Shown here: in pieces, positions 2,896 to 24,241 of the stretch | Layout: each line of letters opens with the position of its first letter | Numbering within the stretch: the stretch's first letter is position 1 | DNA from: a virus | Reading direction: 5' to 3' (one strand) | DNA length: 64,000 nt | Virus record (IMG/VR): IMGVR_UViG_3300050015_000743 | Span: 23,171 to 87,170 of that record | The notes under the pieces: model-generated | What the model was told of the DNA's origin: nothing | Seen by the model: the letters and a program-made list of their open reading frames with translations, nothing else | Database searches by the model: none | Position numbers and translations under genes: made by a program

Positions 2896-5364
2896 ATGAA
2901 AAAACATGCATCACAAGAAGCATTTATTCAAAGACTTCAGGAATTGGCACAAACAAAGAAACCTATTATAAAGGAAGCAAACGTCCGTAATTTAGGCGAC
3001 TTGATTGATTATAAGAGGTCAGCCGATGGTATTGCTTATGGTATTGTCAAAGAACAGCACCATTATTATATTAAAAAAGCTGGCACTAAAGAAAATCCTA
3101 ATGTTGCAGATTTTGCATATATTGGTGGATTATCAAATATAACCAATTATCAATACACTAAGTTATCTGAAGCTGAGAAGCAAAGGAATATGATATTTCA
3201 AACAATCAACGAAAGTATTGCAAATAAACCAAGTTTAACAGGTAGCAAGAAAAAAAGGCTTAACGAAGACGTTGCAAAAGACGAACTCGATCAAGCATCG
3301 GATAAGGTTGGTGAATTAGATGCTGCAACAAATGCAGAAAATACTCCAGAACCAGCACCAAACCCAGAGGGTGGTGCACCTACAGATGCAGGAATGCCTT
3401 CACCAACTGGTGATAGTAATGCACCTACAGATATGGAAGAACCTGCTCCAGATGCTGGTAATGAAGAACTTCCACCTGCTGAAGATGCAGAAGCTGGTAG
3501 TGAAGAAGAACTTCCACCTACTGATGATACAGAAGAGAATCCTGAAGGCGAAAATCCCGAAGGTGAAGGAAAAGATGCAATTGCATCTGATATTGGTGAA
3601 ATTGGCGAAAAAGTACAAAATACAAATCTAAAAGAAGATAAGGTTAAGGAATATGTTGGTACATTTCTTGGTTATTTTACAGATTACTTTAAGAAAATGC
3701 CACAAGAAGAACTTGATGACTTGGGTGATAAAATTATTAAGGTTAACACCGAAGCAAACATAAAAGATTTGGAAGCAAATACTCCAAATGAACCAATTGC
3801 AGGTGGCGAAGAAGCTGGTATTGAAGAAGAACAAGAACAGTGCGCAGAATGTGGTAAATTCAGTAAATATGCAGAATCACGTGGTTATGACAGTCCAGAA
3901 AAATTCATGGAATGTGATGATGAGGAAAAAACAAATGTTGTTAATGACTATATAACTGCAGGTGACGAAGGTATGAATGATGGCGATGAAAAAACTATTA
4001 GTTTAATCATCAAATTATCTCCAGATATGCTTGCTAAACTGAAAGACGATTACGGTCAGGAAGAATATGCAGAAAAAATTCAACCACAGGTTGATTCAAT
4101 GAATGAATCCGATGAAGATGCTATGATGCAACTTAAAGAAGCATGGGGTGATGTATGGCAGGGTATTAAAGGTGCTGGGCAAGCAATTGCTGGTGCTGCT
4201 AAAACTGCTGGTACAGGTATTTCACAGGCTTATCATGGTATTGGTGTTAATCCAGCATGGAATAAACTTGCAGCTATTGCAACTGATTTGGGAAAACAAA
4301 TTAATGCAGTAAATGATAAAGCAGTTAAAGCTGGTCAGAGTCCTGTTAAAGTTCAGGATATTCTTTCAGTAATAAATAAACAATTAACTACTCCAACAGC
4401 ACCACAGACAAAGACTGGTAAAGACATGAATGCAAGTCAAGCTGCTGCTTGGCAAGCTGGTAATAAAGGTCAACAAACTGCTGGAACTAATGTAGATGTT
4501 AATGCATTAAAAGGACAACAGGGTATTGCTAAGAAAGCTGCTCAACCACTTTCAAAGGTAGCAGAAAATCAGATGCCAGTTGATCAAACACAGGTACAAC
4601 CTAATATATTAAAAGAAGAGGAAGATGAAGAAGAAAAGGATTTTAATATAGATGATCTTGATACAGGTGAAGAAAAAGGTGGTGAAGAAGTTACTCCAGA
4701 GGAAACTCCTGAAGAAACTCCTGAAATTGAAACTGGTGGTGAAGAAGAGGAAGAAGTTCCTGAAGAAACTCCAAGTATTTTTGGAAAAGACGCACAAAAC
4801 TTAGGTGGTGGTGTTGTTAAACCTGAAGGTGCTGGTGTTGAAATTAAAATCGAACCAGATAAAAGCATCAATATTTCAATGAGTGAATCTGAAAAGAAAT
4901 TAAGAAAATACATTCGTGAACATCTTGAAGTTAAAGCAGGTTTAAGAAAAGCAAATCTTAATGAAAGTAAAAAATCACCAACATTAATGAAACTTGACGC
5001 TGTAATTGACAGACAATTTAAGCTCTATGAATCAACTATAGTTAAAAAAAAAGTTGAAGAAGGTGTAGTAACAGATGTAATGGGTAAAATGGGACAAGGA
5101 CTTGAAGGTAGATTGAAAAAACAAAGAGAATTGAAACGTGCTTTGGAAATTGACCCTGAAAATGCTGGTTCTGCACTTTATAAGGCATTTGAACAAGATT
5201 TTAAATTTCAAGCTGGTGGACTTCAGTATTTAAATAAATTAACACCTGAAGAAAAAATGCAGCTTGCACAACAAGCAGCAAGCGACCCCAAAGGGTTAGG
5301 TCAATTGAAAATTATGAATGATAAACTCACATATATTCCAGTTGATTACTCAGCAAGAGGATAA
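2896..5364 (+). CDS. Large acidic Pro/Glu-rich protein, probable virion or head-interior protein
   Basis: An 822-residue protein. Residues 1-110 look folded. Residues about 140-230 and 570-650 are low-complexity Glu/Pro/Gly/Asp (EETPEETPE repeats). A central block contains CAECGKF and a second Cys, possibly a small metal site. An Ala/Gly-rich helical segment (GAGQAIAGAAKTAGTG) follows. The C-terminal 170 residues are basic and helical. It is preceded by its own late promoter and followed by a strong terminator, so it is a single-gene unit. The N-terminus (MKKHASQEAFIQRLQELAQ) is basic and contains LQE, like the possible processed peptides of nearby genes. Not recognised by homology; a structural role is inferred from the promoter and context. 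Confidence 0.55.
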   Translation: MKKHASQEAFIQRLQELAQTKKPIIKEANVRNLGDLIDYKRSADGIAYGIVKEQHHYYIKKAGTKENPNVADFAYIGGLSNITNYQYTKLSEAEKQRNMIFQTINESIANKPSLTGSKKKRLNEDVAKDELDQASDKVGELDAATNAENTPEPAPNPEGGAPTDAGMPSPTGDSNAPTDMEEPAPDAGNEELPPAEDAEAGSEEELPPTDDTEENPEGENPEGEGKDAIASDIGEIGEKVQNTNLKEDKVKEYVGTFLGYFTDYFKKMPQEELDDLGDKIIKVNTEANIKDLEANTPNEPIAGGEEAGIEEEQEQCAECGKFSKYAESRGYDSPEKFMECDDEEKTNVVNDYITAGDEGMNDGDEKTISLIIKLSPDMLAKLKDDYGQEEYAEKIQPQVDSMNESDEDAMMQLKEAWGDVWQGIKGAGQAIAGAAKTAGTGISQAYHGIGVNPAWNKLAAIATDLGKQINAVNDKAVKAGQSPVKVQDILSVINKQLTTPTAPQTKTGKDMNASQAAAWQAGNKGQQTAGTNVDVNALKGQQGIAKKAAQPLSKVAENQMPVDQTQVQPNILKEEEDEEEKDFNIDDLDTGEEKGGEEVTPEETPEETPEIETGGEEEEEVPEETPSIFGKDAQNLGGGVVKPEGAGVEIKIEPDKSINISMSESEKKLRKYIREHLEVKAGLRKANLNESKKSPTLMKLDAVIDRQFKLYESTIVKKKVEEGVVTDVMGKMGQGLEGRLKKQRELKRALEIDPENAGSALYKAFEQDFKFQAGGLQYLNKLTPEEKMQLAQQAASDPKGLGQLKIMNDKLTYIPVDYSARG

Positions 5365-5384
5365 AATAAATATCGAATAAAAGA

Positions 5385-5415
5385 AAACCGAACTAAAAAT
5401 AGTTCGGTTTTTTTG
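5385..5415 (+). terminator. Rho-independent terminator
   Basis: A 10-base-pair stem (AAACCGAACT / AGTTCGGTTT) with a 6-base A-rich loop, followed by a T run. It lies 20 bases after the stop of the 822-residue gene. Confidence 0.85.
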
Positions 5416-5443
5416 TAACATATTATTCAGACATTCGTATAAC
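5409..5443 (+). promoter_or_regulatory. Bipartite promoter-like motif TTTTTTGTAAC-N13-ATTCGTATAAC
   Basis: Both halves and the 13-base spacing are repeated exactly at 42773-42807 upstream of the lipoprotein gene. Here the motif ends only 4 bases before the ATG at 5448, so if TATAAC is a -10 element the message would be nearly leaderless. Its 5' half overlaps the T run of the preceding terminator. Confidence 0.55.
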
Positions 5444-5447
5444 AACC

Positions 5448-5813
5448 ATGAAAAATAATGTAAGAGAATACGACAAATTGAAATTGTTCAGGAATAAAAG
5501 AAGAAATTCCGAACTACTTCTACTTGCTGAAACTCAGCAGGATTTTGATTACAGAAAACTATTAATTGAAGAAAACGAAATTAATTTACACGTATTTTTC
5601 AGTAGAATGATAGTAGCAAATTATTTATCGTGGTTTTTACTTGCAGCATCAATTTATTTTATTCCGTTTCTTGTATTGCCATTGGCAATTGTGTTGCGAG
5701 TTTTTTCATATAAATCCAAGAAAAATTTCGAAAAAACATATAAAAGTTATCAGACTGTTTTAAGTGCAGTTAATCTGATAATTAAAAGAGAATATGGCAT
5801 TCAATTGACATAA
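5448..5813 (+). CDS. Small membrane protein with hydrophobic hairpin
   Basis: A 121-residue protein. Residues about 55-85 hold two closely spaced hydrophobic stretches (YLSWFLLAASIYFIPF and LVLPLAIVLRVF) consistent with a membrane hairpin; both flanks are charged. There is no signal peptide. It is isolated between a terminator and the next late promoter and has its own non-late promoter motif, shared with the lipoprotein gene at 42840. That suggests early or constitutive expression. A role at the host envelope is possible but unproven. Confidence 0.6.
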   Translation: MKNNVREYDKLKLFRNKRRNSELLLLAETQQDFDYRKLLIEENEINLHVFFSRMIVANYLSWFLLAASIYFIPFLVLPLAIVLRVFSYKSKKNFEKTYKSYQTVLSAVNLIIKREYGIQLT

Positions 5814-5840
5814 AAGTAGTAATATTTTTCCCCGTTGTAT

Positions 5841-5850
5841 CGTATTTATA
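5841..5850 (+). promoter_or_regulatory. Late promoter motif CGTATTTATA
   Basis: CGTATTTATA, 13 bases before the ATG at 5864, one of the shortest spacings in the window. Confidence 0.55.
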
Positions 5851-5863
5851 ATAAATTCACGAT

Positions 5864-6343
5864 ATGGAATATGATGATAGTAAATTGAAGTTGATATATG
5901 TCTTGAAAATTGGTTACAATTCAAAAGATGAGGGGTTATATGAGTTTATATTTTCTCTTGATGAAACTAATATTGATGCTGAAGGTTGGTGTTGGGATAT
6001 TGCGCCAGCGTGTGATAATGCATTAGCACCTACTGAGGAATTTATAAATGCTGTTTTTAATTTAAAAACTGCATCATTTGATTTATTCTGCTTGCATGAA
6101 TCTCCCGAAAGAGAATATATGCATGGTTATCACACCATACATGCACTTGCGTATGAGGTTGAAAAGAAAGACCAAAATGGTTATAGCGATTATGATAAAA
6201 TGTTCAATGGAGAGAACGATGATGTTCCATTGTTAGTTTTTCATTATGGCATGTCATTGGCAAAAGTGAAAGACCTTCTTAATGCAAGAAAAATCATATT
6301 AAAGAATAACGAATTCGTTGAAACGTCTTCGCTGAAGTTTTAA
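5864..6343 (+). CDS. Hypothetical protein
   Basis: A 159-residue acidic protein with an aromatic-rich core (AEGWCWDIAPACDNALAP, then HGYHTIHALAYEVE). No domain recognised, no signal peptide and no membrane segment. It sits directly upstream of the terminase gene but has its own late promoter. Terminase has a separate one, so the two may be regulated alike but need not be one message. Confidence 0.5.
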   Translation: MEYDDSKLKLIYVLKIGYNSKDEGLYEFIFSLDETNIDAEGWCWDIAPACDNALAPTEEFINAVFNLKTASFDLFCLHESPEREYMHGYHTIHALAYEVEKKDQNGYSDYDKMFNGENDDVPLLVFHYGMSLAKVKDLLNARKIILKNNEFVETSSLKF

Positions 6344-6368
6344 GCATTTACGATTTTTACATAGTCAG

Positions 6369-6378
6369 AGTATTTATT
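6369..6378 (+). promoter_or_regulatory. Late promoter motif AGTATTTATT variant
   Basis: AGTATTTATT ends 13 bases before the terminase ATG at 6392. Confidence 0.5.
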
Positions 6379-6391
6379 ATAAAATTTTATA

Positions 6392-8476
6392 ATGAGTGCT
6401 GCTGATATTAACCCCGATCTTGTTCCTGATGAACTATTCCCAGATCATGTGCCCTTAATTCCCATTGATGTACAAAGAGAAAAGGAAAAAGAAGAAATTC
6501 GAAGATTAACAAAGGAACTTAAAAAGAATATGGGTGACATTGAGCCAATCATTGTTACCGAAAGTGGGGGTGTAAAAAAAGCAAGCGAATTAACTCTTGC
6601 AGAAAAGCAAAATGAAATTATTCGTTGCGCCAGTAATCCAATATATTTTATTGAAACATATTTAACAATCTTTGACCAGACAAAAGGTGTTGCTGGTCTT
6701 ATTGTTCAATTCAAATTATTTGATTTTCAAGTAGATTTAATTAATTCATATAGAGAAAACCGATTTGTTGTTGCTAATAAATATCGTCAGGCTGGTATTT
6801 CAACTACCACCTGTGCATATATCGCTTGGTACGTGATGTTCAATAGAAACAGACAGGTTGCTATCGTTGCCGATAAACTTGAAACTGCTCGTGATGAATT
6901 AATGAATGATGTTGTTGATTTCATTGAAGGTTGTCCTAAATGGCTTAAGCCCAAAACAGGTAGAAATACTGAAAAGAATCTCAAGGATACTCAGAAACTC
7001 AAAGTATATGACAACAATTCGAAGTTAGGTGCTTTCAGTTCAAAAGGTCTTCGTGGTTATACGCCAACCTTGTTGTTCTGGGATGAAACTGCATGGACAG
7101 AAAAGGGAGATAAATTCTGGACATCTGCACAGCCTACATTACAAACTGGTGGTGCTGCAATTATGGTTAGTACTCCTTCGGGACTTGATGCTGTCTTCTA
7201 TAAGACATTCCAAGGTGCAAGAGAAGGTGACAATAACTTTAAAGCAGTTGAGCTTTGGTGGTTTAATGACCCACGTTATAATAAAGATTTGGTTTGGCTT
7301 AAAAATAAAGGAAAGGAAACTGAGAAACGTTGGGTTGATGAGAATTGGAGTACGAAGAGAAGAATTGAATTAATGGATGATGGCTGGGAAGCAAGCAGTC
7401 CTTGGTTCGAAGATCAGGTTCGTAATGCCAATGGTGATATGCGTAAGATTGCACAGGAACTTTTGTGTTCTTTCTTAGGTTCTGGCGACAACTTTATTGC
7501 TGAAGAATATCTCAAACGTATACAAGAAGATGAAGTACTTCCACCAAAGTCACAGGAATATATTGACAAGAACATGTGGATTTGGGAAGAGGCACAGGCT
7601 GGTGAGCAATACATAATGGCAATAGATGCTTCGCCCGGGCATGGTGAAGATAATTCTACCATTAACATGTTGAAAACCAAAGAAACAATTGAAGAAAAGA
7701 CAATTATAAAAAACGGTAAAGAGAAGAGAATTAAAATTAAAAGACATACCGTTGAACAGGTTGCCGAATATTATGGCAAGATTGCACCACAGATGCTTGC
7801 AGAAATTGCATATCAATATGGTATACGATACAATAAAGCATATTGTGTAGTTGATATAACTGGTGGTTACGGTGTGCAGACAATTGAAAAACTTCTGGAA
7901 ATTGGCTATGAAAATATTCATTATGCTGAAGTAACACATAAACCTTCAAGAGACAGACTACAAGGTTACATCAAAAAAGGTCAAAAAACTATGAATGATG
8001 GTGCAATAATGAATGTGGATTTGATACCCGGATTCTTCATCGGTGGCAACCGTGCATCTGTTGTTCTTGAAATGCAACGTGCGATTCATTTACAGGACGT
8101 TATAATTCATTCCGTAAGATTGCTCAATGAATTAAAGACCTTCGTTACAGTGGCTGGAAACCGTGTTGCTGACCATAAGCGTAGTTTCCACGATGATTCA
8201 ATTATGGGATTATCAATTGGTTTGTATGTTCTGAACTTTGATATGGTGCGTTACAAACAAAGTAAAGGTATTACAGAGCATATGCTCAATGCAATTATGA
8301 CAGTTAACGATATGAAAGAAATGGATAAAAGACATGCTACTGGTAATACTCTTTCCATTAGAAATACAAATGTTAAGAACAAACCAATGTTTTCTCCAAA
8401 TAATACATCACCATTAAATCCATATGGTGCAAATGCATGGTTATTTAATGGTGTAAATGGAAAAAAGAAAAACTAA
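6392..8476 (+). CDS. Terminase large subunit (gp17-like)
   Basis: A 694-residue ATP-driven DNA-packaging motor and nuclease. The ATPase domain has an atypical Walker A, NKYRQAGISTTT (about residue 130), and a Walker B, LLFWDETAW (about 230), followed by the coupling motif STPSG. The C-terminal RNase H-like nuclease domain shows AIDASPGHGEDNS, VVDITGGYG and a final HDDSIMGLSIG, supplying the acidic metal ligands. Length is close to T4 gp17 (610) with N-terminal and C-terminal additions. It would dock on the portal encoded just downstream. No small terminase subunit was identified in the window. Confidence 0.93.
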   Translation: MSAADINPDLVPDELFPDHVPLIPIDVQREKEKEEIRRLTKELKKNMGDIEPIIVTESGGVKKASELTLAEKQNEIIRCASNPIYFIETYLTIFDQTKGVAGLIVQFKLFDFQVDLINSYRENRFVVANKYRQAGISTTTCAYIAWYVMFNRNRQVAIVADKLETARDELMNDVVDFIEGCPKWLKPKTGRNTEKNLKDTQKLKVYDNNSKLGAFSSKGLRGYTPTLLFWDETAWTEKGDKFWTSAQPTLQTGGAAIMVSTPSGLDAVFYKTFQGAREGDNNFKAVELWWFNDPRYNKDLVWLKNKGKETEKRWVDENWSTKRRIELMDDGWEASSPWFEDQVRNANGDMRKIAQELLCSFLGSGDNFIAEEYLKRIQEDEVLPPKSQEYIDKNMWIWEEAQAGEQYIMAIDASPGHGEDNSTINMLKTKETIEEKTIIKNGKEKRIKIKRHTVEQVAEYYGKIAPQMLAEIAYQYGIRYNKAYCVVDITGGYGVQTIEKLLEIGYENIHYAEVTHKPSRDRLQGYIKKGQKTMNDGAIMNVDLIPGFFIGGNRASVVLEMQRAIHLQDVIIHSVRLLNELKTFVTVAGNRVADHKRSFHDDSIMGLSIGLYVLNFDMVRYKQSKGITEHMLNAIMTVNDMKEMDKRHATGNTLSIRNTNVKNKPMFSPNNTSPLNPYGANAWLFNGVNGKKKN

Positions 8477-8547: not shown

Positions 8548-11500
8548 ATGGCTGAAGAAAAAAAAGGTGGAACTATATATCAGGAACTTAGTTCGTTTCT
8601 GAATCTCGGTGGTTTTGATGTACAGACTGCACAACCAACGGTATCTGCAAGTACACCGCCTAAAGAGTCGAAGATTATCATTAAAGGTAATTCTCCTGAA
8701 GAAATCTACAGAAAGGGTTTGGAACTGGAACAAAAAAGAGAACTTCAAAATAAGTTTTTCCGTACTACTGATAGAGGTTTTCAGAAGGCTTTACAATATG
8801 AAGCAGCCAGACTCCCAGCATATATTGATTATGAGGGTATGGAATATTACCCAATTATTAGTAGTGCATTGGATTTATTTATGGAAGAAGCAACAACCAT
8901 TGGTTTAAATGGTAAAATGTTGAACATATATTCAAATAAGGAAAGAATCAAGACAATATTAGAAGAATTTTTCTACGATACGGTTAACGTAAATGTTAAC
9001 CTACCATTCTGGGTAAGAAACACTGTTAAATATGGTGATAATTTCGTATTACTTTATGGTGAACGTAAAAAAGGTATTACTCACGTGAAACAACTCGTAA
9101 ACTATGAAATTGAGCGTTTCGAGAGAATTCAGAATGGAAAACCACTGGTGAAATTCAAAGAAAGGATGACTGGTGATGAATTTAACGTATTTGAAATTGC
9201 TCATTTTAGACTTCTTGGTGATGACAAATATTTACCCTACGGAAGTTGCTTATTATCAGATAGTTATATAAAAACAAGCAATGGAATTAAAGAAATTAAA
9301 AACATTTTAAAAGGCGATGTTGTTATTGGTTTTGATATCAAAACACAGAAAAAAATAGAATCTAAGGTATTGGATGTTGTTTGTAATGGAGAAAAACAAA
9401 CATATAAAATATCAACACAGCATAATTATCTTAAGTTAACTGATAATCATAAATTACCATATTACGATTACGATGATGATTTATTTAAAGAAAAATTTGT
9501 TAGTGAATTAAAAATCGGTGACGGATTAATTATAAATAATCATGATGATTATAATGAACAAATAAAAATTAATAAATCTATTGAAATTAAGGAGCATAAA
9601 AATAGAATATATGGTGATTTTGTTAATGATTTAAAATATATTCCAGATTATGTTGATAAAGATTTTGCAAAATTATTTGGATTTTTACTCGGAGATGGTG
9701 GTGTAAATGCAACAAGACCTTATATGGTATATTTTGCATATGGTGTACATGATATTATTAACCAAAAATATATTAATTTATTAGAAAAATACTCAAATAA
9801 AGAAATTTATTTAAGAAAAAATAATAAATATTCAAATGGGATTGCTTCAGCAGTTGTTAATTCAAAATCTTTAGCAACCATATTAAAAAATATGGAATTT
9901 GCTGGAGATTCAAGAACAAAAAGAATTCCAAAATGGTTGTTTTCCGCTTCCACAGATATTAGAAAAGCATTTTTGGAAGGATTACAAGACGCTGATGGGT
10001 CAGTAAATGTGGATAAATGGAATTGTAAAAGATTTGGCATTGAAATGTCTAATTATAGTTTAATTAATGATGTTAAACTATTAGCACAATCATTAGGATA
10101 TAAAACTGGTAGTATTAATAAAAGAAAAAAAAGAAATAATATTATTATTAATGGTATTAAAGTAAAAAATATTGCAGATGCATATCAATTATTTTATTAT
10201 GAGTCAAAAAATGAACAAACAATGTTTTCCGACATAGAAAATAGATTAACCAATGATTTTATTGTCGAAAAAATAAAATCGATTGAATTGGATGAAATTG
10301 GTTTTGTTTTTGATATTCAAGTTGATAATGAAAATCACAATTTTTTTGCAAATAATATTGTTGTTCACAATTCAGTACTTAATAAAGTTCGTAGAGTTTT
10401 TAGACAGTTAATTATGGCTGAAGATGCTATGTTAACATATCGTATTATCAGGGCAGGTGAAAAGAAAGTATTTAAAATTGATGTTGGAAACATTGATGAG
10501 GATGATATCGAAGAATATATCTACAAAGTAGCTACCAAGTTTAAAAAAACTGCACAGGTAGCTCCGAATGACGGACAGATTGATTACAGGTTTAATATAA
10601 TGGGAAATGATGAAGATTATTTCCTTCCAGTGAGAAATGCAAATACTCAAACAGGAATTGAAACCCTCCCGGGCGCATCCAATCTTGATGCAATTCAAGA
10701 TATTGAATATTTACGTGACAATTTATTTATTGGTTTAGGTGTTCCAAAACCATTTCTGAGTTTTCAAGATGCTGCTGGTGCTGGTAAAAACATGGCACAA
10801 TATGATATTCGTTTCGCAAAGAAAGTCAATCGTATTCAACAAGCTATGATTCAGGAACTCAATAAAATGGCAATGATACATTTGTATTTATTGGGTTATA
10901 CTGGCGAAGACCTTAATGATTTTGTTCTTACACTTACTAATCCTTCAACACAACAAGAATTACTTAAAGCCGAATTACTTCGTGAAAAAGCACAGACATA
11001 TGCTGAATTGACACGTGCTGAAGCTGGTATTGCTGCAATGTCACACACAGGTGCAAAACGTATGTTATTTAATATGAGTGATAGAGATATTGTAAATGAC
11101 TTGAAACAACAGAAAATGGAAAAAGTTATTATGCAAGAACTTCAGGATTCACCAGTTACAATCAAGAAAACTGGTTTATTTACCGATATTGATAAGAGAT
11201 TTGGTGAACCTCAAGGTGCTGCAATGGCAGGTGCTCCAACTGGTGGTACTGCTGGTGCTCCACCTGCTGGTGGTGCTCCTGCTGGTATGCCACCTCCACC
11301 TGCTGGCGGTGCTCCAGAAATAGGACTTCCACCTGAAGGCGGTGCTCCTGCTGGCGGTGCTGGTGCTCCACCTCCTGCTGGTGCTGGTGCTCCACCTGCT
11401 GGACTTCCACCTATGCAAGAAAATAGAATGACCGAAGATCAATATAATCTACAACTTGAAAAATTAGTATATGGTGACAGTTACCATCCAGCAGTGCATA

Positions 11501-11697
11501 GAAATGAAGTTAAGCGCAGAGAACTTATAAAAGAGAATGATGAAATTAACGATAACTTAAATAAAAATGCTTTCGATATGGTTAATGAAATTGATGCTTT
11601 ATTAGAAAAGGGTGAAACTATTAATGCCGAACATAAAATAAATGAAACCGAAGATATTGATTTCGAATCAATTGAAAACATTGAAGATATTGAGTAA
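8548..11697 (+). CDS. Portal protein precursor (gp20-like) interrupted by an intein
   Basis: The 1049-residue precursor becomes 674 residues after removal of residues 234-608. Joining the flanks gives LPYGS-SVLNKVRRVFRQL followed by EDAMLTYRI, a hallmark stretch of T4-type portals. The portal is the dodecameric DNA channel at the prohead vertex and the docking point for terminase. The C-terminal extein has an unusual Ala/Gly/Pro-rich tract (precursor residues about 890-957) and then an acidic helical tail. The start is set by a late promoter 23 bases upstream and the sequence MAEEKKGGT. The gene must splice to be functional because the intein interrupts a core portal region. Confidence 0.92.
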   Translation: MAEEKKGGTIYQELSSFLNLGGFDVQTAQPTVSASTPPKESKIIIKGNSPEEIYRKGLELEQKRELQNKFFRTTDRGFQKALQYEAARLPAYIDYEGMEYYPIISSALDLFMEEATTIGLNGKMLNIYSNKERIKTILEEFFYDTVNVNVNLPFWVRNTVKYGDNFVLLYGERKKGITHVKQLVNYEIERFERIQNGKPLVKFKERMTGDEFNVFEIAHFRLLGDDKYLPYGSCLLSDSYIKTSNGIKEIKNILKGDVVIGFDIKTQKKIESKVLDVVCNGEKQTYKISTQHNYLKLTDNHKLPYYDYDDDLFKEKFVSELKIGDGLIINNHDDYNEQIKINKSIEIKEHKNRIYGDFVNDLKYIPDYVDKDFAKLFGFLLGDGGVNATRPYMVYFAYGVHDIINQKYINLLEKYSNKEIYLRKNNKYSNGIASAVVNSKSLATILKNMEFAGDSRTKRIPKWLFSASTDIRKAFLEGLQDADGSVNVDKWNCKRFGIEMSNYSLINDVKLLAQSLGYKTGSINKRKKRNNIIINGIKVKNIADAYQLFYYESKNEQTMFSDIENRLTNDFIVEKIKSIELDEIGFVFDIQVDNENHNFFANNIVVHNSVLNKVRRVFRQLIMAEDAMLTYRIIRAGEKKVFKIDVGNIDEDDIEEYIYKVATKFKKTAQVAPNDGQIDYRFNIMGNDEDYFLPVRNANTQTGIETLPGASNLDAIQDIEYLRDNLFIGLGVPKPFLSFQDAAGAGKNMAQYDIRFAKKVNRIQQAMIQELNKMAMIHLYLLGYTGEDLNDFVLTLTNPSTQQELLKAELLREKAQTYAELTRAEAGIAAMSHTGAKRMLFNMSDRDIVNDLKQQKMEKVIMQELQDSPVTIKKTGLFTDIDKRFGEPQGAAMAGAPTGGTAGAPPAGGAPAGMPPPPAGGAPEIGLPPEGGAPAGGAGAPPPAGAGAPPAGLPPMQENRMTEDQYNLQLEKLVYGDSYHPAVHRNEVKRRELIKENDEINDNLNKNAFDMVNEIDALLEKGETINAEHKINETEDIDFESIENIEDIE
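9247..10371 (+). mobile_element. Intein with LAGLIDADG endonuclease in the portal gene
   Basis: A 375-residue intein in frame. It begins with Cys (CLLSDSYIKTSNGIKEIKN, block A), has a block B TDNHKLPYY (TxxH), and ends VVHN followed by Ser as the first extein residue. Two dodecapeptide motifs mark a LAGLIDADG homing endonuclease: LFGFLLGDGG and FLEGLQDADGS. All residues expected for splicing (Cys1, block B His, penultimate His, terminal Asn, +1 Ser) are present, so splicing is likely active. Base composition is more AT-rich than the flanking extein. Confidence 0.93.
11215..11410 (+). repeat. Ala/Gly/Pro-coding repetitive tract in portal C-terminus
   Basis: About 65 codons of imperfect repeats such as GGTGCTCCTGCTGG and CCACCTGCTGG encode Gly-Ala-Pro-rich sequence. 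It is clearly more GC-rich than the surroundings and is expected to be disordered. It could vary in length by slippage or recombination. Confidence 0.75.
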
Positions 11698-11765: not shown

Positions 11766-12548
11766 ATGAAAAGTATCAATATAGGAATTGTTAATTTAAT
11801 AGTTTCCAAGAAGTTAAAGGACGCTTACTTCAGTAATGCTTTAATTGAAGAATCAAAAAAATTAACAAATGATTTCTTTACAATCGTAAGGAACTCACCA
11901 ATATTGCAGTTGGAGTTCAAGGTGTTTAATAATATTGAAAACAAACACATTGAAAATGACCTTGCTGCAACCCGTTATATTGACAATAACATTAAGTTGT
12001 TTGAAGTATGGACTCTTAAAGAAATTGAAGCTGAACATCAGAAACTCAAAGCATTTCTTAATGAAGAAGTTCAGGTTGATGACAGCAGAGTTGATTTATA
12101 TGTTGCAATTGGTAATCTTATTAAAGAATCTCTTAGTAATAGTGAAGATGTAGATGTTGATAGCATTCATGAATCATTTACACAAGTATTAAATCATGTT
12201 AAAACAGCAAAACAAACTCTTACAGAAAGTGTTGAACCTGAAGTCGAAGAGGTTGATGAAAATGTTATTGAAATTGCAGTAAATAAATTTAACGAAAGAT
12301 ACGAAACACTTTCTGAAGATGATCGTAATTTATTCATGAAGCTCGTTAATGCCAGCGATAAACAGAAAGAAGATTTACTCGAAGAATATAAAGCAGAAGA
12401 CCTTACTTTATTAGAAAGTGTCAACAAAGAAGCGGTTAAGGATAGCATCGGTAAAGCAATGCAGAAGATTAAAGAAATGAAATTTAATCCCAAAACTGCA
12501 GATGATGATATTATCGGTTTACACGAACTTAAAAAGGGTATACTTTAA
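11766..12548 (+). CDS. Hypothetical helical protein downstream of portal
   Basis: A 260-residue protein, mostly alpha-helical and acidic. The N-terminal half (MKSINIGIVNLIVSKKLKDA) looks folded. An acidic linker near residues 158-175 (EPEVEEVDENV) precedes a second helical domain, ending LHELKKGIL. No family recognised. A late promoter and its place after the portal suggest a head or connector role. It converges with the transglycosylase gene on the other strand; the stops abut at 12548/12549 with no terminator visible between. Confidence 0.55.
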   Translation: MKSINIGIVNLIVSKKLKDAYFSNALIEESKKLTNDFFTIVRNSPILQLEFKVFNNIENKHIENDLAATRYIDNNIKLFEVWTLKEIEAEHQKLKAFLNEEVQVDDSRVDLYVAIGNLIKESLSNSEDVDVDSIHESFTQVLNHVKTAKQTLTESVEPEVEEVDENVIEIAVNKFNERYETLSEDDRNLFMKLVNASDKQKEDLLEEYKAEDLTLLESVNKEAVKDSIGKAMQKIKEMKFNPKTADDDIIGLHELKKGIL

Positions 12549-18869: not shown

Positions 18870-20774
18870 ATGAGTAAGATTTTACAAGCAGGGCAGACAG
18901 GATTTGGTATTTTGATCGAACATGATGCTGGATTTATTAGTGCTGATCTCAATCCACAATTTTTAACTGAAGCATTTGTAATTAAGCCAAATGAACCTGT
19001 ATTAATAACATGTATATTACAGAAATGGGGTGTTAAAAACAAAAACGGCAGGATATATCCTAAAGCGGTTTTAGTACCACAGGTCAATTTATATCAAGAT
19101 TTAATTAATACTAATAGTGCAGTTTCTGAAGCCGACCATCCCGACTGCGTCCAAGCATCTAATTCAGAGATACTTACAAAAGATGGTTGGAAATTAATTA
19201 AAAATATTTCAGAGGATGAAGAAATATTAACATTGAATAATTTAACTAACCAAATTGAAATTCAGAGAATTGAAAAGAAAATATATTTACCATATAAAGG
19301 TAAAATGTATAAATTTTCTGGTCAAAATATTGATATGACAGTCACTGCTAATCATAGATTTTTACTTGAAAATTCAAAGGGTGAAAGAAATTATTTTTTT
19401 GCTGAAGATATTTTTAATAATAAAAAAAATGTTTTTTCTTCTGGTCATTATAAGTTATTAAAAACAGGCGAATGGACGGGTCAATATAATGAATATTATA
19501 CATTAAATGGTGTTAACAGAAATTCATTAAGTTTCAATATGAAACATGATTTAATTGAAAAATATACACAACCAATTGATGTTAAGTCTGAAGATTGGTT
19601 TGCATTTATGGGTATTTATTTAGCTGAAGGACATTGTGGTGGTACAAAGTCTAATCAATATAAATTGAAGGGATATGATGTTGTTATAACACAGAAAAAT
19701 GAAGAAAAAAAGAAAATTATTGTAGAATTATTAAATAAATTACCGTTTAAATATTGGATTGATGAGCATGATAATGGAAAATGTCAATATCATATAGCTG
19801 ATGCAAGATTATACAATTATTTATTTCCATTAGGACATTCACATAATAAATTTATTCCAGTTGAATTAAAACAAGCATCATCAGATTTATTGAAAATATT
19901 TTTTAATTGGTTTCAGATTGGTGATGGAAGATCAGTTAAATCAAAGTACGAAAATTGGTCAAATAAAGAATCGGTTTTTTCAACATCAAAACAATTGATT
20001 GACGATTTGCATGAAATTCTAATTAAAATTGATGGAAACGGTAACATTACTACTTATCAACCTAAAGATAGATATTTAGTTGATCATTCGGTATTGAAAA
20101 GAGAGGTTATTTTATCTGATGGAACAGTTGAATATATCAATGAAGATATAAAAGAAAAAAGATTAGTTAAGGCTGAAAATAGTCATCTTCAATATAATTT
20201 AAATATATCAAAACGAAAAAATATTTGGCTTGATAAAAGAAGTATAACAATAAATAAAATTGATTTTGATGAAGAAATTGCTTGTGTTAGGGTAGCCAAT
20301 AGCAATTTCATGATTAGAGTAAATGGTAAATCACATTGGACTGGAAACTCTTCTATTATTTCTTTACAAAATCTCTCACATATGATAACAAAAATGTGGT
20401 GGGGAACTGGTGATAAAGAAAATGTTTTATATGGTCAATTAAAAATTATTGTAACTCGTGGATATATTAATTATGGCGTATGTTCAGTTATTGGTGATAA
20501 GATTGTTCTGTATCTTGAAAATAAAATAAGATTAGGTATTTCCAGCCGTGGAGTTGGTACACTTAAAGAAATTAATGGTGAAAATCTCGTACAAGGAGAC
20601 TTCGAACTAATTGGTTTTGACTTAGTTGCATCACCAAGTACCCCGGGCGCATTTCTTATGCCAGAAAAACAAGGCGATAAATCTGTTGGCGAGAATTATG
20701 TGCAGAAAAACGGTATATATCTTAAGGAAGACGAACAAAAAATAGTAACTGCTGTTAATAAGTTCTTATTGTAA
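18870..20774 (+). CDS. Prohead protease precursor (gp21-like) interrupted by an intein
   Basis: The 634-residue precursor becomes 233 residues after removal of residues 93-493, close to T4 gp21 (212). The N-extein ends SEADHPD, containing the His expected in the catalytic site. The C-extein continues SSIISLQNLSHMITKMWW and includes RLGISSRGVGTLKEI, with the expected catalytic Ser, then GFDLVASPSTPGAF. The family is a serine protease that cleaves scaffold and capsid proteins inside the prohead. The gene is followed by the scaffold and capsid genes, the same order as T4 21-22-23. It can only be active after protein splicing. Confidence 0.9.
   Translation: MSKILQAGQTGFGILIEHDAGFISADLNPQFLTEAFVIKPNEPVLITCILQKWGVKNKNGRIYPKAVLVPQVNLYQDLINTNSAVSEADHPDCVQASNSEILTKDGWKLIKNISEDEEILTLNNLTNQIEIQRIEKKIYLPYKGKMYKFSGQNIDMTVTANHRFLLENSKGERNYFFAEDIFNNKKNVFSSGHYKLLKTGEWTGQYNEYYTLNGVNRNSLSFNMKHDLIEKYTQPIDVKSEDWFAFMGIYLAEGHCGGTKSNQYKLKGYDVVITQKNEEKKKIIVELLNKLPFKYWIDEHDNGKCQYHIADARLYNYLFPLGHSHNKFIPVELKQASSDLLKIFFNWFQIGDGRSVKSKYENWSNKESVFSTSKQLIDDLHEILIKIDGNGNITTYQPKDRYLVDHSVLKREVILSDGTVEYINEDIKEKRLVKAENSHLQYNLNISKRKNIWLDKRSITINKIDFDEEIACVRVANSNFMIRVNGKSHWTGNSSIISLQNLSHMITKMWWGTGDKENVLYGQLKIIVTRGYINYGVCSVIGDKIVLYLENKIRLGISSRGVGTLKEINGENLVQGDFELIGFDLVASPSTPGAFLMPEKQGDKSVGENYVQKNGIYLKEDEQKIVTAVNKFLL
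19146..20348 (+). mobile_element. Intein with LAGLIDADG-type endonuclease in the prohead protease gene
   Basis: A 401-residue intein in frame. It begins with Cys (CVQASNSEILTKDGWKLIKN), has a block B VTANHRFLLE (TxxH) and ends GKSHWTGN followed by Ser. The penultimate residue is Gly rather than the usual His, with a His four residues earlier. Diverged dodecapeptide motifs FMGIYLAEGH and WFQIGDGRS indicate a LAGLIDADG homing endonuclease. It differs in sequence from the portal intein, suggesting independent arrival. Confidence 0.9.
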
Positions 20775-20870
20775 TGGAATTTATAAGCGCATAAGATAGT
20801 TATAATTTTTCTTAAAAACAAGAAAATTAAGGTTGTTTTTATAAAAAAAAATGCTTTTTGGTAAAAATAA

Positions 20871-20880
20871 CGTATTTATA
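20871..20880 (+). promoter_or_regulatory. Late promoter motif CGTATTTATA
   Basis: CGTATTTATA, 37 bases before the ATG at 20918. It falls inside an in-frame TTG-initiated extension beginning at 20858, which argues for the downstream start. Confidence 0.6.
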
Positions 20881-20917
20881 TAAAAATTATAGTATTAGTA
20901 AGGACATTTTTAATAAC

Positions 20918-22537
20918 ATGGAAAACGAAAAAAAATCGATAGTAAAGGAAGCGTTAGTTGATTTTAAAAATATTCAACAAGCTGCGGATGCTAATGCTAA
21001 GAAAAGATTGGCTGCAGAATTCCCAAAAGAATTCGGCAATATTTTGAAAGAAGAATTAAATAAAAATAAACCAGCGAAAGAATCCTATAAAAAACTGGAT
21101 GAAGCTGAATCAAATAAAGAAACTGATATGAAAAATTTAACAAATGAGACCCCAAAGGTTGTTAAGGAAGCTGCAGGTAAAGGTTTACCATTTAATACAA
21201 AAGCAAAAGGTGTACAAAAAGTAGCAGAAGATGTAAAAATTACTGATACTGTAGGTAAAGGTGAACCTTTTGATGAAAAAGCAAAAGGCGTACAGAAAAT
21301 TGCTGAAGAACGTGAAAAAGATTTCATGGGCGATGTAGAAGGCGAAACACCAAACCAAGGTAAAGGTGAAGCTGAAAAAGGTAAAATATTTAACGAAAAG
21401 CTCAAAGGTCCGACCTCTGGCAAACCAATTGCTAATACAAAAAAAGACGTATCAGAGAATTATGATTTAACAGAACTTGATATGAGTGGTGTAGGTACAG
21501 CATTAGAAGGTGCAGACAACATGGATGAAGTTCTTTCACTGGAACAAATTGAAGAAGAAATTAACGCTATGGAAACAGCAAATGAAGAACTTGCTGGCGG
21601 TGGAACACCATCAGTAGGAAGTCCATATGAAGGACTTGTTGAAATGCGTGATAAACTTGATGGTATGATTAAAGGCATGGGTAGCATGGGTGAGCAGAAA
21701 AACAACGGTGGCAAAGGTGCAAACGTAGTTATGGCTGGCGGTCCTAACCAAGCTAAAATTGATGAACTTGATGTTTATGAACAAAAAAATAATGGTGGAC
21801 AAGGTGCTAACAAAGTAAATGCTGGCGGTCCTACCCAACCTATGATTGATGAAGTAGGTAGTGAAGACGAAATCACTCCTGAAATGATTGATCAAGTATT
21901 AGGTCAAAAAGAAGAAAAACCTGTTGAAGAAAGTCTTACACAGACATTAGGAAATATGAAGAAAGTTCCTTCAACTTCAATCCCGGGTGTTGATTACAAG
22001 AGCACAGGCGCAGTTAATAAAATGCGTTCAGGTTTACGTACAGAATCAGAGAAAAAGATTAGTGGTTTAATCGAAGTTAACAAAAAATTAGCTAAGAAAT
22101 TAAACGAAACTAAAAAATATAAAGAATCCGTTACAGGATTAGTTGAAAGTTATAAGTCCGCACTTGACAAGTATCGCAGTCAGTTAAAAGAAATGGCAGT
22201 TTTCAATACCAATTTGGCACACGTCAATAATTTATTGGTTAACGAAGAGTTGGCATTAACGCAAGAGGACAAGATTAAGATCATCGACGAATTTAAAAAA
22301 GTCGATAGTATTGTTGCTTCACAGAAGGTGTATAAAAACTTCCTTACAGAAATGAAGGGTGGAAAGAAAACACTTACTGAAAGTATTGAGGATAAAGTAT
22401 CAGCTTCTATACAGCCATCTTCAAAACAAAAACTTGATGAAGTAGTAGAAAAAACAGCCTATACCAATGATAAACATATCATGAGAATGAGAAAAATCAT
22501 GGAAACTATAGAGCATAGAGGCAAAAAAATAATTTAA
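20918..22537 (+). CDS. Prohead core scaffold protein (gp22-like)
   Basis: A 539-residue protein starting MENEKKSIVKEAL. It lies between the protease and the major capsid gene, as T4 gp22 does. The C-terminal half is a coiled coil (LIEVNKKLAKKLNETKKY onward) of the kind expected for a scaffold core, ending IMETIEHRGKKII. The N-terminal half is acidic and contains two repeat families: GKGxPFxxKAKGVQK (near residues 84-140) and EQKNNGGxGAN with xAGGPxQ (near 268-310). The repeats may reflect internal duplication. It would be degraded by the protease during maturation. Capsid starts 25 bases later in the same unit. Confidence 0.82.
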   Translation: MENEKKSIVKEALVDFKNIQQAADANAKKRLAAEFPKEFGNILKEELNKNKPAKESYKKLDEAESNKETDMKNLTNETPKVVKEAAGKGLPFNTKAKGVQKVAEDVKITDTVGKGEPFDEKAKGVQKIAEEREKDFMGDVEGETPNQGKGEAEKGKIFNEKLKGPTSGKPIANTKKDVSENYDLTELDMSGVGTALEGADNMDEVLSLEQIEEEINAMETANEELAGGGTPSVGSPYEGLVEMRDKLDGMIKGMGSMGEQKNNGGKGANVVMAGGPNQAKIDELDVYEQKNNGGQGANKVNAGGPTQPMIDEVGSEDEITPEMIDQVLGQKEEKPVEESLTQTLGNMKKVPSTSIPGVDYKSTGAVNKMRSGLRTESEKKISGLIEVNKKLAKKLNETKKYKESVTGLVESYKSALDKYRSQLKEMAVFNTNLAHVNNLLVNEELALTQEDKIKIIDEFKKVDSIVASQKVYKNFLTEMKGGKKTLTESIEDKVSASIQPSSKQKLDEVVEKTAYTNDKHIMRMRKIMETIEHRGKKII

Positions 22538-22561: not shown

Positions 22562-24241
22562 ATGGGATTTTTAATGGAAAGTGCGGAAGTTGGCAATATT
22601 GGATTAAAACAACTCCGTGAACAAAGAGAAATAACAACAAACCGTTGGGAAAAAATCGGTCTTCTTGAAGGTCTTGAAGGTAACGTAAAAGAGAATTGCG
22701 CACAGCTTTTCGAAAACCAGTTATCACACATGATCAACGAGTCTTCAGATTCAAGCAATAGCGGACAGTTCGAAACTGTTGCATTCCCTGTAATCCGTAG
22801 AGTATTTGCAAAATTACTTGCAAACGATATCGTGTCTGTACAAGCACTTAACTTACCTATTGGTAAATTGTACTATATTAACCCTAAAGCAAGCGTAAGA
22901 GTTGATCAATCACCTAATTTCAATCACACATCACCAGATGGTGCTTATGGAAACGCTGCTGAAAAAGCATTGAGCGCAAAAACTCAATTCGAAAGTCGTT
23001 CATTATACGATGCATTCTATGCAACTGAGTATGCTGAAGAAGGTACATCATTATTTGATCGCTCAAAAGGCGACATGATTGTTGTTACTGGTACAACTAC
23101 TGCATCTGCATGGGTTGTTGGTGTTGATAAATATGTTACCTTAACACTTGCTGGTTTCAGTATCACAAATGAAGGTAAATTAATCGGTCCTGCTGGTGTT
23201 CCTATGGATACTGAATCTTTCCTTGCTGGTTTGAGAATAACCGCAAGTGTTAAATTAGTAGCTCCTGCACCTTATGCAACTGACGGTTCAATTACTGCTG
23301 GACAGGCTATTCCTTTCAACGTTAAAGTTCAAAAATACGGACAGGCAATCGTTGACAAAACTGGAAAAATCGTTCTTATAGCTGACGTACAATATGCTGG
23401 AACTAATGGTTACAGTGCATTAAGCGCAACAACTGTATCAACTGGTATCACTTTCACTGCAACTTACAGAGTATACAGTGACCTTGAAGAAGATTCAAGA
23501 ATGGCTGAAGTAACTTTCGTACTTGACCAAGTAACAGTATCTGTAGAAACACGTAAAATGCGTGCTATGTGGACACCTGAACTTGCACAGGACGTTAGTG
23601 CATTCCACAACATTGACGCTGAAGCAGAGTTAACAGCTTTACTTTCAGAACAAATGGCTGCTGAAATTGACCGTGAAATTCTTCGTGACCTAAGACGTGG
23701 CGCAGCATGGACAGCAAGATGGGACTATAATGGTCTCCGTAAAGGAACTAACACTTACTACGGTGTTCAGAAAGACTGGAATCAAACATTGATCACAAAG
23801 ATCAACCAGATTTCAGCACAGATTCACAAAGCAACCTTAAGAGGTGGCGCATCATGGGTAGTAGTATCCCCAGAAGTTAGTGCAGTATTCGATGACCTTG
23901 AATATTTCCACGTATCTAACGCTGCTCCAGAGCAGGATAAATACAACATGGGTATTGAGAAAATTGGTACTCTTAGTGGACGTTATCAGGTATATCGTGA
24001 CCCATACGCACCAGCTAACACAGTATTAGTTGGACATAAAGGAACAAGTATCTTGGAAACAGGTTACATCTACGCTCCTTACGTACCAATGCAGTTAACC
24101 CCTGTAATGTATAACCCATTTGATTTCACACCAATCCGTGGTATCATGACACGTTATGCAAAGAAAATGGTACTTAACAGATACTATGGTAGAATCTTCT
24201 GCGATGGTCTTCAGACCTTCGGAATTGGTGACTTACAGTAA
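22562..24241 (+). CDS. Major capsid protein (gp23-like)
   Basis: A 559-residue HK97-fold capsid subunit; T4 gp23 is 521. The N-terminus TTNRWEKIGLLEGLEG followed by NCAQLFENQ aligns with the T4 gp23 N-terminal region (KW..LLEG, then IFENQ). Later segments match the family: MWTPELAQDVSAFHNIDAEA, then YAPYVPMQLTP and MTRYAKKMVLNRYYGR. Candidate protease sites of LxE form (LLE at 34-36, LFE at 49-51) lie in the N-terminal part. Codons are notably tidier and GC-richer than in neighbours, typical for a highly expressed gene. A terminator follows directly. Three small early proteins in this window resemble its first 85 residues. Confidence 0.96.
   Translation: MGFLMESAEVGNIGLKQLREQREITTNRWEKIGLLEGLEGNVKENCAQLFENQLSHMINESSDSSNSGQFETVAFPVIRRVFAKLLANDIVSVQALNLPIGKLYYINPKASVRVDQSPNFNHTSPDGAYGNAAEKALSAKTQFESRSLYDAFYATEYAEEGTSLFDRSKGDMIVVTGTTTASAWVVGVDKYVTLTLAGFSITNEGKLIGPAGVPMDTESFLAGLRITASVKLVAPAPYATDGSITAGQAIPFNVKVQKYGQAIVDKTGKIVLIADVQYAGTNGYSALSATTVSTGITFTATYRVYSDLEEDSRMAEVTFVLDQVTVSVETRKMRAMWTPELAQDVSAFHNIDAEAELTALLSEQMAAEIDREILRDLRRGAAWTARWDYNGLRKGTNTYYGVQKDWNQTLITKINQISAQIHKATLRGGASWVVVSPEVSAVFDDLEYFHVSNAAPEQDKYNMGIEKIGTLSGRYQVYRDPYAPANTVLVGHKGTSILETGYIYAPYVPMQLTPVMYNPFDFTPIRGIMTRYAKKMVLNRYYGRIFCDGLQTFGIGDLQ

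Follow-up and report, generated by a model that had tools for sequence, protein, structure and literature searches.

A probable mobile intein at a conserved landing site beside the catalytic histidine of a T4-type prohead protease

Why would a phage keep a 401-residue insert almost against the catalytic histidine of its capsid-maturation protease? The question is raised by an open reading frame (ORF) of 634 amino acids at 18870–20774 (plus strand, as for all features of this gene) in the window, a 64,000-nucleotide stretch of the IMG/VR virus record IMGVR_UViG_3300050015_000743. The frame is uninterrupted across the insert, and sequence, Pfam and PHROG evidence identify its product as the precursor of a prohead protease with a spliced length of 233 residues. 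An original prediction from the sequence proposed that an intein just after the probable catalytic His keeps the unspliced protein from forming its active site and may delay protease activation until late infection. The insert is very probably a mobile, class 1-type LAGLIDADG homing-endonuclease intein, and the most conserved codons of this essential late gene are best read as its refuge and landing site, not as a timing switch.

The ORF product is a T4 gp21-type (S77) prohead protease. Its extein parts match Pfam Peptidase_S77 (PF03420; E 1.3e-12, best stretch residues 504–599) and PHROG 207 head maturation protease (E 1.3e-30, residues 496–626), and an intein-free relative has the gp21 fold (versus PDB 5jbl, E 3e-9, TMt 0.77). 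Alignment with the T4 gene 21 product places His90 (codon 19137–19139) at T4 His85, Ser558 (20541–20543) at Ser140, and Asp584 (20619–20621) at the conserved acid in VDAV/FDLV; the three residues occur in gp21 order and are invariant among 20 aligned intein carriers. The assignment rests on this alignment, on the sequence of 5jbl, and on the triad H77, S153, D178 of the related SPN3US protease (PMC5694885). Compared with the T4 gene 21 product, the solved T4 chain has both His85 and Ser140 replaced by Ala, which fits a protein made inactive so that it could be crystallised. T4 gp21 shares the fold and the His-Ser-Asp positions with the window's protease, and carries no intein. The alignment could have put the catalytic His elsewhere; it instead confirms that the intein lies two residues after it.

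The N-extein (residues 1–92; 18870–19145) ends SEADHPD, the intein spans residues 93–493 (19146–20348), and the C-extein (20349–20774), which contains the catalytic Ser and Asp, begins with the +1 residue Ser494. The insertion point, between DHPD and SSIIS, is here called site b (DHPD^C...GN^SS). The junctions first read from the sequence, with the N-extein ending EADHPD and the C-extein resuming at SSIISLQNLSHM, are correct; the coordinates first given, 19140–20351, came within two codons of the true boundary upstream and one downstream, and so took in Pro91, Asp92 and the +1 Ser. Comparison with intein-free relatives at the same site bears this out: excision of residues 93–493 gives SEADHPDSSIISLQNIS, which is how the empty site reads in many intein-free IMG/VR proteases (the window itself has LQNLS).

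The intein has the residues expected of a splicing element. Cys1 (residue 93; 19146–19148) is the first nucleophile; block B (TVTANH, 19338–19355) has the TxxH motif with Thr159 and His162; block F (ACVRVANSNF, 20280–20309) has Cys472 at position F:4; and block G (SHWTGN, 20331–20348) has a penultimate Gly492 and terminal Asn493. Cys1, TxxH, the F:4 Cys, the terminal Asn and the +1 Ser are invariant among 20 aligned same-site members. Between the splicing blocks lie two LAGLIDADG motifs, FMGIYLAEG (19605–19631) in an I-DmoI-like fold and WFQIGDG (19908–19928). The G+C content of the intein is 25.5%, against 33–34% for the exteins.

An AlphaFold2 (AF2) model, in which most of the intein is predicted with high confidence, has the Hint fold of solved inteins. 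The best structural matches of residues 90–496 are solved endonuclease-bearing inteins, the top four with Z 23.8–26.7 (7qsu, Z 26.7, root-mean-square deviation (rmsd) 4.1, 310 aligned; 2cw7, Z 25.2), and the endonuclease part matches I-DmoI with Z about 14–15. Because dozens of homologous inteins occupy exactly the same site and the model matches solved inteins with Z up to 26.7, the insert is more than chance. That it is instead an in-frame intron or an assembly artefact is so improbable as to be negligible; in its favour stands solely that the window's own clade is all metagenomic, and against it stand an open stretch of 401 codons whose product has Hint and LAGLIDADG folds, and the recurrence of the insert in separate metagenomes as well as in a phage in culture.

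The intein is more likely class 1 than class 3, judging from sequence features, because Cys1 is present and Trp is absent at the B:12 position (block B reads TVTANHRF). The position-1 nucleophile of class 1 is therefore in place, while the penultimate His that is common but not obligatory in that class is missing. Class 3-like traits are also present, namely Thr before the terminal GN and the Cys at block F:4, where class 3 inteins have one (PMC4031507). The closest solved splicing domain is in fact that of a class 3 intein, AceL NrdHF-1 (6zgq; Z 20.7, rmsd 1.8, 151 aligned; phmmer E 0.0015), from which the window intein differs in having Cys1 and, by our reading of the alignment, in lacking Trp at B:12. 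Phage class 1 LAGLIDADG inteins such as those of Bethlehem RDF, phage NrdA and TerL likewise have Cys1, TxxH, terminal Asn, a +1 nucleophile and a LAGLIDADG endonuclease. The window intein differs from these in its host gene, a capsid-maturation protease, in its F:4 Cys, and in belonging to a lineage found at two points five codons apart.

IMG/VR searches combined with junction patterns recovered 66 complete intein-bearing proteases (60 after removal of near copies), all 66 with the required junction residues. Site b is occupied in 46. The other 20 carry a homologous intein at a second point, site a, which is vacant in the window (between Glu87 and Ala88, 19130/19131) and lies five residues upstream of site b, ahead of the catalytic His (GE^C...N^CDHP); none of these proteases has both sites filled. 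Two carriers, a 484-kb metagenomic phage (L001) and the cultured Desulfovibrio phage 7757 (L002), have site-b inteins with about 30% identity to that of the window. Queries of IMG/VR with the L001 and L002 proteins found no relatives, probably because the exact peptide patterns were too divergent. Scanning bacterial and archaeal genomes yielded four protease relatives, none matched over a length that could contain the intein. A related protease is present in about 2,174 phage records, of which only three (two phages) have a match that spans 80% or more of the intein-bearing form. The prohead protease is thus a recurrent intein target in uncultured phages that is rare in sequenced phage records. 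Searches of open-access literature for inteins in prohead or maturation proteases turned up no account of one. Directly 3' of the intein-bearing protease of L001 is an ORF (4693–6393) of 566 residues with Cys motifs that may encode an endonuclease-type protein.

Several points weigh against reading the insert as a working mobile intein. The Pfam Intein_splicing score of 19.2 bits is under the curated cut-off of 35.8, which we take to reflect divergence. Helper His residues are wanting, at the penultimate position in all site-b members (46/46 Gly) and in block F in most members. The sample came from searches seeded with intein carriers, and prevalence cannot be estimated from it. Lastly, the intein-free rows of an extein tree of 65 proteins were picked near carriers.

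On the supported branches of that 65-protein tree, no fewer than 11 changes of the site-b label are forced. The tree of all 218 proteins forces a minimum of 14 changes for site b and four for site a. Carriers are more clustered on it than in shuffles, and forced changes among clustered carriers imply that both inheritance and transfer act. A single carrier clade within the window's group on the extein tree was rejected (approximately unbiased (AU) test, p = 5e-73). Relatives with about 80% extein identity or more lack the intein; the nearest found, L037, is 85% identical in its best segment. The distribution is patchy, with many independent gains or losses, which points to a mobile intein. Individual events were harder to document: AU tests for horizontal transfer gave p = 0.20 (not significant) for the intein pair of L014 and L023 and p = 0.03 (marginal) for the intein of L009, L011 and L012, and flank identity in 30-base steps showed no clear rise towards the insertion point of the kind expected from coconversion.

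The intein is under purifying selection, dN/dS in close intein pairs being 0.03–0.26 for the splicing parts and 0.06–0.31 for the endonuclease. Five members are mini-inteins without an endonuclease (L116, L117, L367 and L371 at site a; L319 at site b) that keep the splicing blocks and both junctions, which fits a need for splicing but not for homing. These observations bear on whether the insert still splices cleanly, or whether the precursor is instead cut, used unspliced, or encoded by a decaying gene. The penultimate Gly, the missing block F His and the weak Pfam score would suit such a failure, and the modelled precursor, in which the extein halves adopt the gp21 fold around the intein, makes an unspliced enzyme conceivable. 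Loss of clean splicing is nonetheless very unlikely: the splicing residues are all invariant, dN/dS is low, the triad is invariant in aligned carriers, and even the mini-inteins keep both junctions.

The penultimate Gly had been suggested as a residue that could slow splicing. It is present as first read (WTGN), but is the rule at site b, where it occurs in 46/46 inteins; the collection search patterns left this residue free, and the junction parser permitted Gly, His or Ser and preferred GN among several candidates. At site a (n=20) the residue is His in nine, Gly in seven, Ser in two, and Leu and Lys in one each. In the Bethlehem RDF intein of a mycobacteriophage, which also has a penultimate Gly, the native residue supports complete splicing and a Gly-to-His change slows it (PMC5050341). 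This corrects the view that an intein with Gly at the penultimate position is a slow one.

Beyond the anatomy, exact site, family and conservation described above, we infer that the precursor splices, promptly and without a regulatory role, and that the endonuclease cuts DNA. The precursor would excise the intein by attack of Cys93, transfer of the chain to Ser494, cyclisation of Asn493, and joining of Asp92 to Ser494; ligation would restore DHPDSS and the catalytic site, with SEADHPDSSIISLQNLSH as the expected ligated peptide. Where a co-infecting phage has the gene without an intein, the endonuclease would cleave that copy, and the intein would be copied in. Two features would favour site b. 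The DHP codons, with the catalytic His in their middle, rank with the best conserved of this essential gene, and a suitable +1 Ser is already there, being present in 145 of 150 scored intein-free proteases. The capsid-maturation protease would thus join the essential phage genes that serve as intein refuges. Among the 46 site-b proteases, only that of L350 (ORF on the minus strand) has Cys rather than Ser at +1 (SGN^CSTINLKN).

Whether the unspliced protein has activity is a separate matter. In the AF2 model of the precursor the extein halves form the gp21 fold around the intein (versus 5jbl_B, Z 15.3, rmsd 3.0, 144 aligned, 28% identity, model range 18–589), and the predicted local distance difference test (pLDDT) score is below 50 at residues 83–90, which include the catalytic His, and at 495–500. 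Residues 75–86 of an intein-free relative, around its His 77, are likewise poorly predicted. The model is compatible with an active or an inactive precursor, and neither shows nor excludes activity. Because a 401-residue insert sits two residues from His90, inactivity of the precursor is a sensible and plausible supposition. The original statement that the unspliced protein cannot form the active site therefore holds as far as a plausible dependence on splicing; "cannot" exceeds the evidence, given the gp21 fold of the modelled extein halves and the low pLDDT around the His.

Splitting of the triad was considered as the intein's role and rejected, since in site-a proteases the C-extein contains all three of His, Ser and Asp. 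The broader proposal, that the intein was recruited as a timer whose slow or late-triggered splicing makes the protease active only once capsids are ready, draws on the adjacency of the intein to the catalytic His and the probable impairment of the unspliced chain, on the persistence of mini-inteins without an endonuclease, and on conditional splicing described for other systems, such as mycobacterial DnaB (PMC6195587). We consider it unlikely. Close relatives do without the intein, whose presence is scattered over the extein tree; purifying selection on the endonuclease is explained by mobility and not by timing; in the single phage intein put to the test, a penultimate Gly did not make splicing slow (PMC5050341); and control of T4 gp21 is already provided by N-terminal self-cleavage and activation in the finished prohead (PMC9958956). 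Together with the unsplit triad of site-a proteases, these points tell against the delayed activation first suggested, while leaving room for a minor effect of the intein on timing.

The intein trees bear on relocation between the two sites. With 60 rows in the tree, one group (support 95/84) takes in 18 site-a inteins and has the site-b intein of L353 as its sister (100/100), and the site-a intein of L032 falls within the window's site-b group as sister to that of L031 (98/95). A single site-a clade was rejected (AU p = 0.003), and the mixing of sites a and b on the intein trees requires at least two relocations. A single site-a clade was also rejected for the endonuclease part alone in a smaller set (p = 0.011); for the splicing part alone it was not rejected in two tests (p = 0.136 and 0.158). 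The site-a intein of apparent site-b ancestry in L032 (4001–5776) comes from a single contig, and its branch is long. The sequence on both sides of it is about 90% identical to intein-free L183, which argues against a chimera. Crossing of the His by one lineage is likely; for L032 the alternative is that the splicing domain descends from site a and the endonuclease was swapped in.

The +1 residues differ between the sites. The site-a +1 residue is Cys in 20/20 carriers, and the same position in intein-free proteases is Leu in 81, Ala in 60, Ser in four, Thr in three, and Arg and Cys in one each; L183, which is 94% identical to L032, has Thr. The sole intein-free protease with the site-a Cys (GECDHP; L164, 2501–3160) may carry the scar of a lost intein.

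On balance we favour, with some reserve, a history in which one intein lineage moved at least twice between points 15 bp apart, across the catalytic His. The site-b intein would use the protease's conserved Ser as its +1 residue, and at site a a Cys would replace the native Leu, Ala or Thr and remain in the mature enzyme as a scar, with one residue between it and the His. Judged by how long LAGLIDADG targets usually are, a single endonuclease recognition stretch would take in both empty sites. If so, new intein sites could arise by a shift of the joining point inside one such target. The paired sites around the His offer a natural experiment on new insertion points, new +1 nucleophiles and, possibly, tuning of the penultimate residue to context.

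Several insertion points in one essential gene are also found in haloarchaeal MCM, fungal Prp8 and mycobacteriophage TerL (PMC10643990, PMC6805012). Prp8 inteins group by site and show limited homology between sites (PMC6805012), unlike the protease inteins, which are homologous at both sites and mixed on trees. The unusual part of the present case is the two homologous intein sites bracketing a catalytic residue.

The setting of the gene is that of a T4-like head module. The protease is single-copy in the 87-kb virus record that contains the window, and the window has the S77 gene order, running from the portal at 8548 through the protease and the scaffold position to the major head protein at 22562, with the large terminase (TerL) at 6392. 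The interval from portal to protease holds other genes, some on the minus strand. The ORF at the scaffold position (20858–22537) has no family match, and contains repeated segments such as KGxPFxEKAKGVQKxAEE and QKNNGGxGANxVxAGGPxQ.

The T4-type portal gene (8548–11697; Portal_T4, E 4.8e-59) contains a second intein of 375 residues at 9247–10371 on the plus strand (Intein_splicing, E 1.4e-15; LAGLIDADG_3, E 8.8e-9), which ends in the canonical HN^S, so that two head genes of this one phage are intein-occupied. Beside the portal gene is an ORF (11766–12548) that weakly resembles an HNH endonuclease family (E 1.2e-4) and may encode a free-standing homing endonuclease. Related inteins with CGN or HGN ends also occur in other, unannotated genes of the Lak phages L003 (Prevotella phage Lak-A1) and L004 (Lak-B1).
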